32,099 nt of DNA. Origin: an uncultured Erysipelotrichaceae bacterium (lineage in GTDB: Bacteria; Bacillota_I; Bacilli_A; RF39; UBA660). The notes under the pieces were generated by a model. The model ran no database searches. It was not told where the DNA came from and saw only the letters and a program-made list of their open reading frames with translations. Positions 3,232-26,555 of this stretch are shown here, in pieces. Each line of letters starts with the position of its first letter. The first letter of the stretch is position 1. Where the stretch lies: positions 1 through 32,099 of the forward strand of contig CADBCT010000005.1 of assembly GCA_902793315.1 (NCBI GenBank), read 5' to 3'. The position numbers and the translations under genes were made by a program.

Positions 3232-5376
3232 ATGTTTGACAGAATTTCTTATATTAGTGATGATTCTTGTACTGTTAAAATGAAAGAAAATGCAGAAATT
3301 ACAATGAATTTAATGAACTTACATTTAGTTTTTGAAGATAGCGAAAAGAAAATACTAGGTGAAGTAGATGACATGGATGGAGCTAGTTTAAAAGCTAGAT
3401 TTTTGGGTGAAATAGTAGGCAACAAATTGATTGGTGGTACTATCAGAAAACCATCTTTAGATGCAAAGATTAGAGTTATAGATCAATCTGAAATACCTTT
3501 AATAACAGGTGCTGATGTAGCTGGATTTATGAAATTAGGAGTAAGTCCATTCTATAATGATTTTCCAGTATACTTAGATGTAAATAATTTCTTTAGTAAT
3601 CACTTTGCTATATTTGGTAATACTGGTTCAGGTAAATCTTGTGGTACTACTAGATTATTCCAAAATATGTTTCATGATCAAAGATTAAATCCTTATAAAG
3701 CAAATATCTTTATCTTTGATTCATCTGGTGAGTATTATAGTGCTTTTTCTAATTTAAATAGCATTAATAATAACTATAATTATCGTTACATTAGTACTAA
3801 TGAAGTAGAAGGCTTAGGAGAAAAGCTAAGATTACCAGTATATTTATTAAATAAAGATGATTTAGCTTTATTATTACAATGTACATCTCACTCACAATTA
3901 CCTATTATTGAAAGAATGTTAAAACTTGCTTTAGTTTTTAGTCAAAATGATGTAGATTCGAATGCTTATAAGAATCACTTGATTGCTAAAGCAATCATGT
4001 CTATTTTATATACAAATGAAACAGCTCCTAATAAGAGAAATGAAATATTCTCTATTTTGGCTAGTTGTTCTACTCCAGAATTTAATTTGGAAGCACCAGT
4101 TCAAGGAATTGGATATGTTCGTAAATTCAGGGAATGTTTCTTAATTGATAATTCTGGTAACTTCACTGAAAGTGTTTTAATGAATCAATACTTAGATTCA
4201 TTTATCAAAGAAGAGTATGATGATTTTGAACCACACACAGGGGTTTATTATAACTTAGATACTTTGGAAAAAGCTCTTAACTTTACTTTGATTAGTGAAG
4301 GTTGGTTAAGAAATGAACAAACATATGGTGATTCAGTAACAATAAGAGTTAGATTACATGCCTTAATAGTTGGAGAAAATGCTAAATACTTTGATGTTCC
4401 TGATTATGTATCACTTGAAAAGTATTTATCATCTTTAGTAGTATCTGATGGTAAAAAATATCAAATAGTTAATATAAATTTAAATGATATTGATGATGAC
4501 TTTGCTAAGGTATTGACAAAGATTTATTCAAGATTAATCTTTGATTTCTGTAAAGGATTAAAAGATAGAGCTAGTATTCCTTTCCATATTATTTTGGAAG
4601 AAGCTCATAGATATATTCAAAGTGACCATGATAGATTCTTATTCGGATATAATATCTTTGAAAGAATTGCTAAGGAAGGTCGTAAGTATGGAGTTATACT
4701 TGGTATAATTACACAAAGACCGGTTGAACTTTCAGATAATGTTATTTCACAATGTACAAATTTCTTGATCTTTAAGATTAACCACCCTATGGATATTGAC
4801 TATATCCGTAAAACGATACCGCATATTACTGATGATATCATTGAAAAACAAAAAGCATTACAAGCTGGTACTTGTTTAGGATTTGGTTTAGGATTTAGAA
4901 TTCCGTTAATTGTTAGAATGGAAATGCCTGATCCAGCACCTTTATCTGGAAACTGTGATGTTGCAAAAATTTGGAATGGTACTGGTGGTGGTATTGCAGA
5001 AACTCCTGCACCTGTTCAATCTCAAACAGTTGAACAAGCTAACCAAGTAACACAAACAGTTAATGAAAATCCAATTATTGATAATAGTATATCTTCTGGA
5101 TCTTCAACTCCAGAAGGGCCTAGTTTAGTTTCTAATGAAGCAGAAACTACTGCAAGCAGTAATGATGCAGAACCTAAATTTGACACTTCATTTGTTATTC
5201 CAGATCAACCAATAATTAATCAAAACCCTGCTTCAAGTATGCCTAGTCAAGCAGCACCTGTTTCTCAGATGGCTCCTGTAGGACAAGAAATGGTTAATCA
5301 ACCAATTCCTGAGTTGCAAGCATCTCAACCACAAGAACCATTAATCAAGCTTTCAACTGAAGGAACTGGTATGTAA
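3232..5376 (+). CDS. HerA-like ATPase (HAS-barrel + DUF87) with disordered tail
   Basis: A 714-aa ATPase of the HerA/FtsK superfamily. Residues 1-95 form a HAS-barrel-like beta domain. The Walker A motif GNTGSGKS lies at 129-136 and a Walker B motif in HIILEEAHRYI at about 452-462. The sequence GKYGVILGIITQRP further on fits the sensor region of DNA-translocating HerA proteins. From about residue 585 the protein changes to a Pro/Gln/Ser/Thr-rich tail of some 130 residues with no predicted fold. Archaeal HerA works with the nuclease NurA in DNA end resection, and bacterial relatives occur in phage-defence operons. No nuclease or SIR2-like partner lies beside it here, and it is a one-gene unit. 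It is probably a hexameric DNA- or protein-handling motor; the exact role is unknown. Confidence 0.88.
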   Translation: MFDRISYISDDSCTVKMKENAEITMNLMNLHLVFEDSEKKILGEVDDMDGASLKARFLGEIVGNKLIGGTIRKPSLDAKIRVIDQSEIPLITGADVAGFMKLGVSPFYNDFPVYLDVNNFFSNHFAIFGNTGSGKSCGTTRLFQNMFHDQRLNPYKANIFIFDSSGEYYSAFSNLNSINNNYNYRYISTNEVEGLGEKLRLPVYLLNKDDLALLLQCTSHSQLPIIERMLKLALVFSQNDVDSNAYKNHLIAKAIMSILYTNETAPNKRNEIFSILASCSTPEFNLEAPVQGIGYVRKFRECFLIDNSGNFTESVLMNQYLDSFIKEEYDDFEPHTGVYYNLDTLEKALNFTLISEGWLRNEQTYGDSVTIRVRLHALIVGENAKYFDVPDYVSLEKYLSSLVVSDGKKYQIVNINLNDIDDDFAKVLTKIYSRLIFDFCKGLKDRASIPFHIILEEAHRYIQSDHDRFLFGYNIFERIAKEGRKYGVILGIITQRPVELSDNVISQCTNFLIFKINHPMDIDYIRKTIPHITDDIIEKQKALQAGTCLGFGLGFRIPLIVRMEMPDPAPLSGNCDVAKIWNGTGGGIAETPAPVQSQTVEQANQVTQTVNENPIIDNSISSGSSTPEGPSLVSNEAETTASSNDAEPKFDTSFVIPDQPIINQNPASSMPSQAAPVSQMAPVGQEMVNQPIPELQASQPQEPLIKLSTEGTGM

Positions 5377-18540: not shown

Positions 18541-18567
18541 TTTTAATAGATAGTAAGGTGGTTGCAT

Positions 18568-20088
18568 ATGAAGTATTTAGCTAGTGTTGGTTGCTCTATG
18601 GGCGCCTTTGTAACTTTGATTGAAATCTTAATTGCTTATATTAGTAAGAAAAAAGTTAATAATTTACAAAACACTTTGTTTGTAGCAATAACTGTTTTTT
18701 GTCTTTTATCATGTTTAGCTGAATTCTCTTATGCCTATTGTATTTCAGTAAGGGAAACATTACCACTTAGCACAGTCTTGTTTTTTTGTCGATCATATAT
18801 ATTCTTTTCATTGTTCTGTATGTATTTTACTATCTGTTATATTGTTGCCTATAGAACAGCAGATTTAGAGGAAAAGAAAAGAAAAAAAATTAGAATAGTT
18901 CTATTCTCAATATTCTTTGTTATATATTCAGTTTGTTTCTTTATAGCAAGTAATTCAAGAATAGAATTATATGATGATTTTCTATATCAATTTAGTGGTC
19001 CTACTATAAATATAATATCAGCCATTTGTTACGGAATATTCATAGTATTTATTTTTGTGCTTTTTATAAAGAACAAAGAACTTTCAAAAAATCAGCTTTT
19101 ACCATTATTATATGCTGTAATAGTGGTTGTTTGTGTTTTTGGCACGCAAATTTTTGGTTATGACTTTAACTATCTTACATATCTTCTTACATTCTTGTTA
19201 GCAGCAATTTTCTTTACTACAGAAAATCAAGATTTTAAACTTCTTGGTGAATTAGAAGAATCAAAGAAAATTGCCGATAATGAAAATGTTGCTCAATCAA
19301 AGTTTTTGGAAAAAATTTCTCATGAAGTAAGGTCTCCATTAAATAATATCTTAGGACTTAGTGATATTTTATTAACTGAGCCAGAATTTAATTTTGAAAA
19401 TATTAAAGCTGATGCTTTAAACATTCAAAAATCTTCTGCTTATTTATTAAATCTTACAAATCATATTGCTGATATTTCACAGATTGAATCAGGTAAAGAA
19501 AAAGTCGAAGAAGCTGAATACGCTTTAGCTGATATTATTGATAGTATTTATGACAATGTTAATAAAAAACTATTGAAAGATGATGTTAGTTTTTCAATAA
19601 ATGTTGATGAAAATTTACCTAAGAGCTATTATGGTGATGCTGAAAAAATTAAGAAAATCATCTTAAATGTGCTTTTCAATGCTTTTAATTATAGTAGTAA
19701 TGGTAAGGTTTCATTAGATATAAATGAAATAGAAAGAACTGATAAAGAAATAAAATTAGAGTTTCTTGTTTTTAATACTGGGCATTTAATGAAAGAAGAA
19801 GATTTTGATCGTGGAATTCAAGACTTTTTTGAAAATAATAGTAATAGTCTTAATATTAGTGATAATATTATTGCTTTGATGGTAGCTAAAAGTTTAGTTT
19901 TAATGCTTGATGGTGAAATGAAATTTGCTAATGAAAAAGGAAAAGGAACTAGATATTTTATTACTTTGAAGCAACTTATTATTGATCCGACTAGTATTGG
20001 TAAGGTAACTAATAGTTTAGATATAATTGATATGTATAAGAAAGAACAATCTAATATAAAAGATAGTTCTTTGGAGGTGAATTTATGA
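18568..20088 (+). CDS. 7TM sensor histidine kinase with degenerate ATP site
   Basis: A 506-aa membrane kinase. Seven hydrophobic segments fill residues 5-218. The dimerisation domain follows with phospho-acceptor His252 (KISHEVRSPLNN), and then a HATPase domain with an intact N box (ILNVLFNAFNYSSNG). The glycine boxes are poor: G1 reads FNTGHL instead of DxGxG, and the GxGLGL lid motif is absent (SDNIIALMVAK). It may bind ATP weakly or act as a pseudokinase. I start it at ATG 18568, six bases after AAGGTGG. Its TGA overlaps the ATG of the next kinase, so the two are coupled and may form heterodimers. No ligand can be named. Confidence 0.88.
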   Translation: MKYLASVGCSMGAFVTLIEILIAYISKKKVNNLQNTLFVAITVFCLLSCLAEFSYAYCISVRETLPLSTVLFFCRSYIFFSLFCMYFTICYIVAYRTADLEEKKRKKIRIVLFSIFFVIYSVCFFIASNSRIELYDDFLYQFSGPTINIISAICYGIFIVFIFVLFIKNKELSKNQLLPLLYAVIVVVCVFGTQIFGYDFNYLTYLLTFLLAAIFFTTENQDFKLLGELEESKKIADNENVAQSKFLEKISHEVRSPLNNILGLSDILLTEPEFNFENIKADALNIQKSSAYLLNLTNHIADISQIESGKEKVEEAEYALADIIDSIYDNVNKKLLKDDVSFSINVDENLPKSYYGDAEKIKKIILNVLFNAFNYSSNGKVSLDINEIERTDKEIKLEFLVFNTGHLMKEEDFDRGIQDFFENNSNSLNISDNIIALMVAKSLVLMLDGEMKFANEKGKGTRYFITLKQLIIDPTSIGKVTNSLDIIDMYKKEQSNIKDSSLEVNL

Positions 20089-21989
20089 TTTCAATGTATA
20101 AATTTACTTTCTTAATGATTATGGGTTTTGGCAGTGTATTATTTAGTATCATGATATTTTTAGCATATCTTACTAAGTCGATTAAGTATGAATTAAAGAA
20201 TAAGCTATATATATTATTCTTAATTCTTACATTCTTGTTTGAAGTTGCTGAAATTATTCTAGTTCTATGCTATGGACTTAGTAATGAAATAATTAATTTA
20301 CACCTTGGTATTAAATTGTATTGGCTATTTGTTTATTTGTGGGATATTTGGTTACTATTATATTGCTTATACTATTATACGGGAATGGATAAAGCTAATT
20401 ATAAAAAACTTACTGACTTATTTAAACATAGTTTCTTTAAAGCATATCTAATAATTGTAATTTTGGGCTTGATAGCTTTTTTTCTAATACCTATAGGTGA
20501 TGTTACTTTTGAGAATTTTGCTATTGCTAAAGGAAATATTCCAACTTATGTTATGGGACTCCATATATTGTTAATTTTCATTATTGCTGTATATATATTA
20601 TGTTCAAGAAAAGAAGTAGCAAAAGATGCTTTGGGAATAATTGCTTTGAATTTGTTTATGAGTCTTGCATTTACCATTGCTCAATTCTTTTTACTTGACA
20701 TTGCTGTGTTTACGATTGCTAATTGTATTTTGCTTGCTAGTTTATATTTGTTCTTTGAAAATCCTGACTTATATACTATTGAAGAAATTGAAATGGCAAA
20801 AGATGTAGCAACTAAGTCTAAATTATCAAAAACAGAGTTTCTTGCAAATATCTCACATGATATAAAATCACCAATGAATACAATTTTGGATCTTACAGCA
20901 GCAATTTTAAATACTGAGGAAGTTGATGAAGATAAAATTAAAGAGGACCTTCGTTTAATTAATCTATCTAGTAGAAATTTAATGGACACAATAAATAATA
21001 TAATTGATATTTCTAAAGTTGAAGGAAATACCGAATCATTAATTGAAAGAGAATATTCGTTGAAAAAAATCTTAATGAATTTATCAAGTATTATTACTTC
21101 TAAAGTGGAACAAAAACCAGTTAAGTTTATTATGAAAGTAGATGAGTCAATTCCAGATACATTACAAGGAGATTCTACTAAGATATATCAATTATTATTA
21201 AATATTCTTTCTAATTCAGTAAAAAACACTGATGTTGGTAAGATTAGTCTTTCTTTAGATAAAGAATTGAAAGGAACTCAAATAATACTTAAATTTAGAA
21301 TAACTGATTCAGGAACTGGAATCAAAGAAGAAATTGCGGAAAAACTAGCTGCTAAATTATCTCAAGAACATAGCCCTGAGCAAGAGGATAATGAAGGTAA
21401 AGGGGTAGGACTAACTATTGTTAAAAAGTATGTTGACTTGATGAACGGAAGAGTTTGGTTTGAAAGTGAATATGGAGCAGGAACTAGTTTTTATGTAGAA
21501 ATTCCTCAAACAATCGTCTCAATGACACCACTAGGAGATGTTAATATTTCTACTGATGAAATGACTAATAAAGAATTAAAAGATTGTTCTAAATATAGAA
21601 TCTTAATTGTTGACGATGATTATTTAAGTTTACAAATAGCCAGTAGATTATTAAGCAGATATAAATTAAAAATAGATACAAGTAATGGTGGAAAAGATTG
21701 TATTTATAAAATAAAGAGTGGAGAAAAATATGATTTGATTTTTCTTGATCCAATTATGCCTGAATTAGATGGGGTAGAAACTTTACATGTAATTAAAAAA
21801 CTACAAAGTTTTTATAATATTCCTCCGGTTATTGCATTAACTGCTAATGTTAACTCTACTGCAAGACAATATTATTTAAAAGAAGGGTTTGATGAGTATT
21901 TATCAAAACCAATTAATTTATTAGAATTAGATATTATAATAAATAAATATTTATCAGAGAAAGAAAATAGTTCTGAAGCAGATGAATAA
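20085..21989 (+). CDS. 7TM hybrid histidine kinase with receiver domain
   Basis: A 634-aa kinase of the same plan as its upstream neighbour but with complete motifs. Seven membrane segments (7-225), His258 in NISHDIKSPMNT, N box LLLNILSNSVKN, G1 DSGTGI, G2 EGKGVGLTIV. A receiver domain fills 503-622: acidic pocket VDDD, phospho-acceptor Asp555 (FLDPIMPELDG) and Lys608 (LSKPIN). There is no DNA-binding domain and no separate response regulator beside the pair, so the output must lie elsewhere (a phosphotransfer protein or a distant regulator). GGAGGTG precedes the ATG, which overlaps the stop of the first kinase. Confidence 0.93.
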   Translation: MISMYKFTFLMIMGFGSVLFSIMIFLAYLTKSIKYELKNKLYILFLILTFLFEVAEIILVLCYGLSNEIINLHLGIKLYWLFVYLWDIWLLLYCLYYYTGMDKANYKKLTDLFKHSFFKAYLIIVILGLIAFFLIPIGDVTFENFAIAKGNIPTYVMGLHILLIFIIAVYILCSRKEVAKDALGIIALNLFMSLAFTIAQFFLLDIAVFTIANCILLASLYLFFENPDLYTIEEIEMAKDVATKSKLSKTEFLANISHDIKSPMNTILDLTAAILNTEEVDEDKIKEDLRLINLSSRNLMDTINNIIDISKVEGNTESLIEREYSLKKILMNLSSIITSKVEQKPVKFIMKVDESIPDTLQGDSTKIYQLLLNILSNSVKNTDVGKISLSLDKELKGTQIILKFRITDSGTGIKEEIAEKLAAKLSQEHSPEQEDNEGKGVGLTIVKKYVDLMNGRVWFESEYGAGTSFYVEIPQTIVSMTPLGDVNISTDEMTNKELKDCSKYRILIVDDDYLSLQIASRLLSRYKLKIDTSNGGKDCIYKIKSGEKYDLIFLDPIMPELDGVETLHVIKKLQSFYNIPPVIALTANVNSTARQYYLKEGFDEYLSKPINLLELDIIINKYLSEKENSSEADE

Positions 21990-23734: not shown

Positions 23735-24988
23735 ATGGAGAAATTTTATATGCAAGATTCGCAAGAAAAGAAACAAAGAAAAATTTTACAAAGAAAGGTT
23801 GATTTTACAGTAGCTCTATCTGTAGTTGTAGCTGCATTTGCACTATTCTCAATTGCATCTTTTGGTATTATTAATAATCAAAAAGATACAGTTAGTTATG
23901 CTGCTCCAGCTGAAGGATTTAATGCTGTAGTACTTACTCCTGATGAAGGTGTTATGGGATTAGTTGGTTATGGTGGAACAGATGCTGATCCAGAAGGATT
24001 AAATGTTCCGTTATACTATATGAATTCAGCTAATTCAGCTAATCGTGTATTTTGTGTAGAGCTTCGTAAGAGTATTGAGGGTGGAGAAAATTATACTAAG
24101 AATGGTATAGCTAATGATGCAGGATTACTTTATATTTTAAAGAATACTATGGCAAATAAAAAATCATTTACTGAATATAAAGGAGATTATGCTGAATATG
24201 TTGAGGTTTGGGCTACTCAAGCTGCAATTTGGTTATATTTAGCAGAAAAATATCCAAGTGTAGAAGTATATCAATTTTATGGTAAGGACGATGCTAATGC
24301 ACCACATTTAACTGATGATCCAGATAGTATGGTACTTGATACAAAAAATGGATTATTAACTACTACTAAAATTCAGTTCCATGGCGGAGAACATTCAGGA
24401 GACTTCATTAGTATTCCTGGTGTAGCTGCTAAGGTTAGAGCTTTAGTTGATCAAGCTATGAAAGCTACTGATCCAGCAACTCCTACTTTGACTTTATCTG
24501 CTAGTGATCAACTTTCAAAAACAGCTGATGGAAAATTCTATCAAACATCATTAATTAATGTTACTGGAAGTCCAGCTGATGCTTTAAAGAGTTATGACAT
24601 CTCTTCAGTAACTGGAATAGATGGTGTTAGAATTGTTGATGAAAATGGTAAAGAATTAGCACTTAAGAATATTGCTGCTGGTAAAAAATTCTATGTAAGA
24701 ATTCCAGTTAACAAAGTTACTGAAAAAACTCAAACTGTAAAAGTACTTGTTGATGGACACTTTACTATGCCTGTAGGTGTTTACTATACGCATGAAGGTA
24801 CTCAAAAATTAATTCTTCTAGATGAAGAAGAAAAACCAGATCAAAAGGGTATTGATTTTGATATCGTTGGAGTTCCTGATACTGGAATGAATGCTGCCCA
24901 AACAATTTACTTTATCGGTTTAATAGTATTGCTTTGTGGTGTAGGAATTGTTTATGCAAATACGAAACCTGTTGAAAGTAAACAATAA
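23735..24988 (+). CDS. Thioester-domain (TQXA) surface adhesin with sorting signal
   Basis: A 417-aa secreted wall-anchored protein. A positively charged head and a hydrophobic helix (about 24-46) form the signal peptide. The thioester domain follows: Cys107 in RVFCVEL and Gln162 in TQAAIW, the pair that forms an internal Cys-Gln thioester in Gram-positive adhesins and lets them bind host surfaces covalently. The rest is beta-rich (about 250-375). The end is a sorting signal, VPDTG (380-384), a membrane helix and a weakly charged tail; the motif differs from LPxTG at the first position. The sortase gene overlaps its 3' end. The codons are better balanced and less A/T-bound than in neighbours, as in highly expressed genes. 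Confidence 0.85.
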   Translation: MEKFYMQDSQEKKQRKILQRKVDFTVALSVVVAAFALFSIASFGIINNQKDTVSYAAPAEGFNAVVLTPDEGVMGLVGYGGTDADPEGLNVPLYYMNSANSANRVFCVELRKSIEGGENYTKNGIANDAGLLYILKNTMANKKSFTEYKGDYAEYVEVWATQAAIWLYLAEKYPSVEVYQFYGKDDANAPHLTDDPDSMVLDTKNGLLTTTKIQFHGGEHSGDFISIPGVAAKVRALVDQAMKATDPATPTLTLSASDQLSKTADGKFYQTSLINVTGSPADALKSYDISSVTGIDGVRIVDENGKELALKNIAAGKKFYVRIPVNKVTEKTQTVKVLVDGHFTMPVGVYYTHEGTQKLILLDEEEKPDQKGIDFDIVGVPDTGMNAAQTIYFIGLIVLLCGVGIVYANTKPVESKQ

Positions 24989-25631
24989 AATAAAAAAGAG
25001 CCATACATTACTGATTGGCTCTTTACTTATTTTTATAGGAGCTATCTCATTAACTTGGAATTATCTTGAAAAGATGAGAGATGAAGTCTATTCTGATATG
25101 AAGATAAAAATGATGGATAAAGATATTCCTAAAAATGTTACTAATGGTGATGTTGTAGATACTGCTCCTGTTGCAGACAATGTAGCTCCTAAACAGGAAA
25201 ATAAACAACCACAATATTATGAGATTGATTATAGTAAGTATACAGGTGTTTTAGAAATACCTAAAATAGGTTTAAAAAGAGGGTTTTATAACGTAGGTAA
25301 TCGTTATAATAATATTGAATATAATGTTACCATGGTTTCTGGGTCTAATCTACCTGATGTAGTGAATGGTAATTTAATATTAATGGCTCATTCTGGGGAT
25401 GCCTACATATCATATTTTGCTTATTTATATCGTTTAAATATTGGTGATATGGCATATGTTACATATGCTGGTAGAAAATATCAATATAAGATTGTTAATA
25501 TTTATGAGGTACCGAAGAATGGAATTGTTACAATAAGAAGGAATAAAAGTAGAACAACTTTGACTATGATTACATGTACGAAAAACAATGATCATACTCA
25601 AACTGTTTATATATCTGAACTCGTTGGCTAG
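24954..25631 (+). CDS. Sortase, probable partner of the adhesin
   Basis: A 225-aa transpeptidase with an N-terminal membrane anchor (about 19-37) and a sortase fold from about residue 90. The catalytic His146 is in LILMAHSG and Cys208 in LTMITCTKNND. The usual Arg near the C-terminus is not found: the segment reads HTQTVYIS, with Gln216 near the expected place. I start it at ATG 24954 with AGGAA six bases upstream, inside the adhesin gene, giving a 35-base overlap. A terminator-like hairpin lies within its first codons. It most likely attaches the adhesin at its VPDTG motif. The class cannot be fixed by eye. Confidence 0.88.
   Translation: MQIRNLLKVNNKIKKSHTLLIGSLLIFIGAISLTWNYLEKMRDEVYSDMKIKMMDKDIPKNVTNGDVVDTAPVADNVAPKQENKQPQYYEIDYSKYTGVLEIPKIGLKRGFYNVGNRYNNIEYNVTMVSGSNLPDVVNGNLILMAHSGDAYISYFAYLYRLNIGDMAYVTYAGRKYQYKIVNIYEVPKNGIVTIRRNKSRTTLTMITCTKNNDHTQTVYISELVG
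24995..25031 (+). terminator. Terminator-like hairpin inside the sortase start
   Basis: AAAGAGCCA (24995-25003) pairs with TGGCTCTTT (25016-25024) around a 12-base loop, followed by ACTTATTTTT. It starts seven bases after the adhesin stop. It may act as a partial terminator so that less sortase than adhesin is made. Confidence 0.55.
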
Positions 25632-25645
25632 AAGAAGGTGATAGT

Positions 25646-26221
25646 ATGAACTTATCATTATTAGAGAAATTGGGGATAATTTTTAAGTATATATTCTCCT
25701 CATTTCTTTCTATTGAAATGTTTGTACTTAGTCTTCTTTTATTTGTTATTTTAATTGTTAACTTAAAGAAAGATAATGAATTAGTTCAAATGATAGCTAT
25801 AGGTATTTATATAGGATTTATAATTGGTATTTTAATTAGTTATAGTACTTATGTTAAAACTTGTGTTAATTCCTTTGTAAAAGCTATTATGAACTATGTT
25901 TATTTCCCTTCTACTATTGTTTACTTCTTTATAATACTATTTGTTACAGTAATGATTTTGTATACATTATTTAGTAAACAGTTAACTATTTTTAAGAAGA
26001 TTATCAATTATGCTTTCTTTAGTATTTTATACTTCTTCTTTATGGCCTTTATAGCTTTAGCTGCATATGATTCTGTAGACTTAGTAGATGTTGCAATACT
26101 ATATCAAAATGAAACAATTCTTTCATTAGTTCAAATAAGTAATTTAATTTTGCTTATTTGGGCTTTATTTACAGGGTTCTATCATTTATATAAGTATTTT
26201 AAGAAAAGATGCAATGAATAG
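25646..26221 (+). CDS. Multi-spanning membrane protein of the sortase operon
   Basis: A 191-aa, very hydrophobic protein with about five membrane helices (roughly 10-38, 45-65, 82-108, 120-142 and 157-180) and few charged residues. I know no family for it. It follows the sortase by 14 bases with AAGGTGAT before its ATG and ends the operon. It might help secretion, hold the sortase, or serve adhesin assembly; none of this can be shown from sequence. Confidence 0.78.
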   Translation: MNLSLLEKLGIIFKYIFSSFLSIEMFVLSLLLFVILIVNLKKDNELVQMIAIGIYIGFIIGILISYSTYVKTCVNSFVKAIMNYVYFPSTIVYFFIILFVTVMILYTLFSKQLTIFKKIINYAFFSILYFFFMAFIALAAYDSVDLVDVAILYQNETILSLVQISNLILLIWALFTGFYHLYKYFKKRCNE

Positions 26222-26273: not shown

Positions 26274-26555
26274 GAAGATGTAGATGGCCATACTTCAAGC
26301 GGAATAGATTACTATGACACAACATATAATAATACAAGACAATTAGATTATTATAGTGCACAAAATGTAACAACAAGTAGTTACTCAGGAGCAATTAAAC
26401 AGTATAATGGTTCAAACGAGTGGTGGTGGTTTCGCTCACCTAATTCTCGCTATAGCACAAGCTCTGATTTCTTCGGTGTGTATTTGGATGGTGGTTGGAA
26501 CGCCAACGAATCTAATTTTACTAATGGAGTTTCGCCAGCTTTCCGAATTGGTTAA
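26274..26555 (+). pseudogene. Start-less C-terminal fragment of a DUF6273-like protein
   Basis: This fills most of the 355-base gap between 26222 and 26576. One frame is open for 93 codons, from just after a TAG at 26271 to TAA at 26553. It has no ATG, GTG or TTG near its beginning and no ribosome-binding site. The translation runs VDGHTSSGIDYYD, then QYNGSNEWWWFRSPNSRY and DFFGVYLDGGW, and ends NGVSPAFRIG. The WWxRSP, G-x-V-x-x-D-G and G-V-x-P-A-F-R-I marks are those of the C-terminal module (DUF6273-like) found in large surface proteins of gut Firmicutes. Codons such as CGC, TCG, AAC and GCC make it less A/T-rich than the genes around it. It is either a decayed gene end or a silent cassette. 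The family call is from memory of the pattern. Confidence 0.65.

Follow-up and report, generated by a model that had tools for sequence, protein, structure and literature searches.

A compact cassette of three genes in the window (the whole 32,099-nucleotide stretch of DNA analysed here) is, on balance, probably a dedicated and self-contained surface-display module, in which an adhesin with a thioester domain (TED) is handled by its own sortase and a five-helix membrane protein aids the pairing of that sortase with its substrate. Besides the cassette, such a module still depends on the general secretion machinery and on wall precursors. The first-pass annotation had proposed that an adhesin, an overlapping sortase and an undescribed membrane partner may form a complete surface-display system, and all three genes proved to be real (Table 1), with an order that is conserved across genera. 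The 5' end of the sortase gene overlaps the 3' end of the adhesin gene by 35 nt, and the membrane-protein gene begins 14 nt after the sortase. The sortase start is likely the ATG at 24954, which was read from the sequence and whose Met is common to the orthologues; sortase residue numbers are counted from it throughout, while some alignments began at a shorter start at 24963.

Table 1 Coordinates of the cassette genes and of the sites discussed in the text.
Feature	Position	Strand	Basis
Adhesin type A, 417 aa	23735..24988	+	ORF, Pfam, model and alignment
Cys107 codon, predicted thioester Cys (strand 104-107)	24053..24055	+	Cys in 49/50 relatives, Ser in 1; model
Gln162 codon, part of the TQxxPhiW motif (helix); not the bond-forming Gln	24218..24220	+	TED papers, model, alignment
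Gln357 codon, predicted bond partner of Cys107 (tip of the final beta-hairpin)	24803..24805	+	Gln in 49/50 relatives, Asp in 1; model
Sorting signal: PDTGM, TM QTIYFIGLIVLLCGVGIVYAN and tail	24875..24985	+	Amino acid identity at equal synonymous divergence
Sortase, 225 aa; His146, Thr207-Cys208, Gln216; last strand without Arg	24954..25631	+	Profiles, alignment
Undescribed membrane protein, 191 aa, five TM helices, N-out/C-in	25646..26221	+	Model, positive-inside rule, conservation

The cassette is flanked by a pyrimidine nucleoside phosphorylase gene on one side and, on the other side, by a VanY-type carboxypeptidase gene of the opposite strand, and promoter and terminator scans found nothing above shuffled expectation. 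Between the cassette and vanY, positions 26274-26552 (+) code for a C-terminal fragment of DUF6273 (PF19789, E 1.5e-6, profile positions 105-170 of 172), which, with the rest of the domain missing, looks like a gene remnant. Elsewhere in the window, 18562-21989 holds two adjoining histidine kinases (508 and 634 aa) with a 4-nt overlap and multi-TM N-termini, the second of which has a receiver domain. The source assembly measures 1.07 Mb at 70% completeness and contains four sortases and four clear TED proteins.

The adhesin comprises an extended signal peptide (residues 1-56, with a Ser54-x-Ala56 site), a TED at about 57-380, the PDTG motif and a transmembrane (TM) helix at about 387-409. As the annotation had supposed, it is a thioester-domain protein: residues 104-173 match the Pfam TED family (E 1.1e-6, above the gathering score), and the structural model returned a class II TED fold over residues 57-380, with matches to BaTIE (Z 17.4, 251 residues aligned) and EfmTIE86 (Z 16.8, 259 aligned) and a Foldseek match at E 1.9e-13, against Z scores of 8.5-11.4 for class I TEDs (for example 9.5 with 149 aligned residues for the class I domain of SfbI). 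The adhesin profile searched against PDB sequences gave only a marginal match to Cpa (E 0.068). Because the alignment of the model with class II TEDs spans the entire range 57-380, the whole ectodomain of this adhesin, which we refer to as type A, is by that model a single class II TED with no stalk. At 23735-23800, ahead of the signal-peptide core, the N-terminus (MEKIYMEEN...) is conserved in relatives beyond what is ordinarily expected of an n-region, and this conservation may point to an extended signal that resembles the YSIRK types.

The original pairing of Cys107 with Gln162 did not hold. Both residues are where they had been placed, and Cys107, in the context F-C107-V-E, is the predicted thioester Cys, but Gln162 is not its partner. 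It belongs to the motif T161-Q162-A-A-I-W166, whose Gln and Trp are both found in 50/50 relatives, and in the predicted structure, which had been suggested as a check, it sits in helix 153-172. The Gln of TQxxPhiW is known to be a helix residue that is not essential for the bond, the bond-forming Gln being located on strand Q (PMC6194298, PMC4450167), and these papers together with the model ruled out Gln162. The predicted bond is instead Cys107-Gln357, the latter residue being placed by the model in the turn between two long strands (333-352 and 359-377), and the closeness of the two would follow from the fold match to class II TEDs. In the 50 relatives the residues after Gln357 are mostly [KTSRDE][VIL][VTI] and the residue before it is often not hydrophobic, and the Phi-Q-zeta-Phi-Phi motif is described as weak. 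In the adhesins of a second, paralogous cassette type (type B, see below), the equivalent Cys62 and Gln276 occur in 20/20 sequences.

The sole Ser at position 107 and the sole Asp at position 357 among the 50 relatives both come from tandem copies, the former from the paralogue in L093 and the latter from L123. A tandem adhesin copy with Ser for the thioester Cys (VFSIEKN) and the Gln kept is found in L048 (2030-3202), L093 (2935-4107) and L094 (2935-4107), and is by its sequence a natural thioester-dead paralogue. In L123 the last of three adjoining adhesin-like ORFs (4038-5342) has Asp for the thioester Gln and keeps the Cys.

The related records are metagenome assemblies of Bacilli, whose names indicate rumen, goat, sheep, yak, roe deer and other gut sources, so that the bacterium probably lives in the gut. 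Their small genomes and large number of genera are in keeping with the uncultured order RF39, and a genome survey predicts that a peptidoglycan wall is kept in most RF39 species (PMC10868615). We consider it somewhat unlikely, albeit a possibility to be taken seriously, that the TED joins bacteria to one another, or acts as nothing more than a structural lock, instead of serving host attachment. Conjugation of pLS20 depends on a class II TED adhesin (PMC8092201), and the type A adhesin, since it has no stalk, would sit close to the wall; however, the gut and rumen origin of the related genomes offers host mucins and other microbes alike.

At the C-terminus of the adhesin, the non-standard VPDTG motif reported by the first-pass annotation is present, with PDTG at residues 381-384 and Val380 directly before it, followed by the TM helix and a short tail. 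The TIGR01167 model for LPXTG-type signals scored 13.6 bits in the protein, against a cut-off of 15.9, and 16.1 in the genome scan; the genome-wide scan was of no use for listing other substrates because the model also matched all of the control genomes (14/14). Mean identity among type A adhesins is 0.83 over TM residues 391-407 and 0.77 over PDTGM, compared with 0.22-0.33 over the TED of the ectodomain, whilst the synonymous difference is alike throughout at 0.36-0.42 (TM 0.41 versus ectodomain 0.37-0.40), and Gly395, Gly402, Gly404, Tyr407 and Asn409 are invariant in the type A set compared. Since the identity of the helix is far higher at equal synonymous divergence, the sequence comparison indicates that selection acts on the TM at the protein level, and the overlap with the sortase gene is able to constrain only the last adhesin residues. 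This pattern suggests that the type A helix makes a specific intramembrane contact. Contact between a sortase and the TM of its substrate has been proposed from simulations of S. pyogenes SrtA (PMC12746448). In type B the TM identity is 0.53, which is similar to that of the type B ectodomain, though type B also has a membrane partner; the type B helix being no more conserved than the rest of the protein, the idea of helix recognition is limited in its generality.

The third gene codes, as was originally noticed, for an undescribed five-helix membrane protein. The model of its 191 residues (pLDDT 86.6) contains five long TM helices plus amphipathic segments, and by the positive-inside rule its charges assign the N terminus and loops 2 and 4 to the outside of the membrane, with loops 1 and 3 and the C terminus facing the cytoplasm. 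The near-invariant residues S18-S19, Y86-F87-P88, Y93, Y153 and N155 are at or near the outer face, and the likewise near-invariant N121, S165, W172 and Y179 are situated elsewhere. The window protein matched no family in Pfam or NCBIfam, in which relatives gave sporadic weak matches only, and the fold search gave no Foldseek match at E <= 0.001, with the best structural match, VIA at Z 7.2, within background. The matches that the fold searches did give were helical ones at background level.

As for what this protein does, it could act on the wall side, either by holding or presenting the peptidoglycan precursor to the sortase or by clearing the cleaved C-terminal helix. The strict linkage to sortase and the conserved residues on the outer face would fit such a role equally well, and the cytoplasmic tail of the type B protein, with its conserved DYKLLLK-type segment, suggests a link to a cytoplasmic process. 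We nevertheless hold a wall-side role to be unlikely, as similarity to known precursor-handling proteins was not seen in Pfam, NCBIfam or fold comparisons and as it would leave unexplained why the substrate TM of type A is constrained.

The second gene product carries a sortase domain (PF04203, E 3.6e-16, with both PF04203 and TIGR01076 above cut-off) in which the His and the Thr-Cys pair are invariant in the alignment of sortase set A2. The canonical Arg, expected at about Cys+9 to +13, is absent: the last strand has TQTVYI in the place of the T[H/Q]RLLV of the controls. We split the distinct sequences for comparison at 90 bits against a profile of the clade. At >= 90 bits, no readable member has an Arg in the range Cys+8 to +13; almost every one carries a Gln at Cys+7 or +8, except for one His and one Tyr among those that could be read. 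Arg is kept, by contrast, in 28 of the 32 sortases below 90 bits, of which three were unreadable and one was scored otherwise (28/29 readable). The Arg is likewise present in two class C-like sortases from the same bacterial family. In a gap-free alignment the Gln falls one residue before the Arg column, where some class C enzymes read Q-R, and Thr or Ile occupies the Arg column itself, so the conserved Gln accompanies the loss of Arg and would at most be a putative replacement for it. In L077, a further sortase of the same genome (4857-5693, -; 278 aa) reads TCNRIFSDDSKEVIYI and has Lys, not Arg, at Cys+9. The window sortase reaches no curated class A-F cut-off, the NCBIfam scores being 64.9 against 160 for class C, 50.4 against 140 for SrtD, 36 against 165 for class D, 34.5 against 160 for class E and 13.7 against 166 for class F. 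Our literature search returned nothing relevant on Arg-less sortases or on a sortase-associated factor.

The loss of Arg throughout the clade members examined, together with the class cut-offs that are not reached, would be compatible with an enzyme that does not perform ordinary wall anchoring, being slow, hydrolytic or dependent on the membrane protein, with the adhesin perhaps released or joined to another protein. We regard this as decidedly improbable, since the His, the Thr-Cys and the fold signature are conserved, the window itself encodes wall enzymes (VanY and a DacA-like protein, by Pfam), and the Arg, although critical, is perhaps not the oxyanion stabiliser, a part that has been assigned to the Thr and a backbone amide (PMC12746448).

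The association of the three genes was assessed by querying a genome collection with the membrane-protein alignment alone. A sortase lies directly upstream of the membrane protein in 75/75 loci, and an adhesin lies upstream of the sortase in 72 of these; two of the three loci without an adhesin begin at a contig edge, and the third (L151) keeps sortase and membrane protein. In a same-family sample of 154 genomes, 69 of the 70 credible membrane homologues adjoin a sortase, which is directly upstream in 68 cases and directly downstream in one (L242). The annotation had named a membrane protein found mostly without sortase as the outcome that would speak against the module, and the opposite was found. 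The one homologue with no sortase is an orphan of 424 aa (L241, 3588-4862, -) beside a 591-aa multi-TM protein. The type A cassette is present in 34/36 genomes of the genus, and the cassette gene order recurs in dozens of genera. Samples at class and phylum level (395 and 392 genomes) yielded no convincing copy outside the bacterial family, weak or partial matches to the membrane alignment within unrelated long ORFs of two genomes (G275, G307) being treated as chance. In the same family many related sortases, Arg-less ones among them, have no recognisable membrane partner, hence not every such enzyme requires one; the membrane partner is tied to the sortase, not the sortase to the partner.

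Type A cassettes hold a single adhesin or, in rare cases, a tandem of two or three, and are flanked by housekeeping genes, whilst in the type B cassette (represented by contig 24 of G000) a TED protein with two SpaA domains and a VPDT/VPNT motif is accompanied by a sortase of its own and by a longer membrane protein. The latter resembles type A in its N-terminal region, with about 19-25% identity, and its cytoplasmic extension ends in a conserved DYKLLLK...ELYRS. The two types occupy unrelated genomic sites and separate in the sortase tree (branch support 0.26) as well as in the membrane-protein tree (0.88). Taken type by type, distances between sortases correlate with those between membrane proteins (r of 0.65 and 0.76, against maxima of 0.31 and 0.43 after shuffling), a correlation that shared descent alone would also give. 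That the third gene is a mere neighbour of unrelated function carried along in a stable operon is very improbable: the orphan copy in L241 and the Arg-less sortases without a membrane protein are consistent with it, but the linkage spans about 48 genera and two paralogous cassettes at unrelated sites, and is kept where the order is permuted (L242) and where the adhesin is missing (L151).

Several known systems share parts of this arrangement. Sortase pilus operons with an accessory protein, such as SipA/LepA in S. pyogenes (cf. PMC4049620), likewise encode a sortase together with its substrate and an accessory protein dedicated to them, but the type A cassette has no major or basal pilin gene, which rules out a sortase-assembled pilus operon, and its accessory is a five-TM protein that is not signal-peptidase-like. 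The class II TED proteins BaTIE, EfmTIE86 and SaTIE (PDB 6FWV, 6FWY, 6FX6) have in common with the adhesin a Cys in [YFL]C-Phi-zeta, the TQxxPhiW helix, an inserted beta-sandwich and the terminal Gln hairpin. The type A adhesin, unlike them, is a TED only, with no isopeptide stalk and with PDTG in place of LPXTG, and shares its operon with a dedicated sortase and a membrane partner; the type B adhesin, with its two SpaA domains, is like a TIE protein. Class C and D sortases share with the window enzyme the sortase fold signature, the catalytic His and Thr-Cys and an N-terminal TM, but the latter lacks the Arg, scores far under the curated cut-offs and is encoded beside a multi-pass protein gene, and a class C lid motif (DPW/DPF type) was not seen on reading its sequence. 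Actinomyces SafA and the staphylococcal Spd proteins are multi-pass membrane proteins tied to sortase display. To our knowledge, neither of these systems is linked to a thioester adhesin.

In the surface-display module that we favour, the adhesin would be exported via Sec and fold as a single class II TED, whose predicted Cys107-Gln357 bond would be open to a nucleophile on a target surface, while the conserved C-terminal helix would hold the protein in the membrane. The Arg-lacking sortase, with its His146, Thr207-Cys208 and Gln216, would then cleave PDT|G and join the adhesin to a wall precursor. The five-TM protein would most likely bind the sortase and/or the substrate TM helix at the outer membrane face as a pairing or retention factor, thereby directing every sortase to the substrate encoded with it. 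A bolder version, which we put forward tentatively and think rather doubtful, is that of a new sortase class without the catalytic Arg, working in a membrane complex with a five-TM subunit that reads the substrate TM helix, so that specificity would come from within the membrane and not from the pentapeptide alone.

Sorting specificity is usually ascribed to the five-residue motif and the catalytic domain, and a cassette that keeps substrate helix, sortase and multi-pass partner together offers a natural means of testing whether membrane helices set it too. The widespread Arg-lacking clade bears on the debated role of that residue in sortases, and the minimal, stalk-free thioester adhesin adds another candidate for covalent attachment, from uncultured bacteria that are abundant in gut and rumen.
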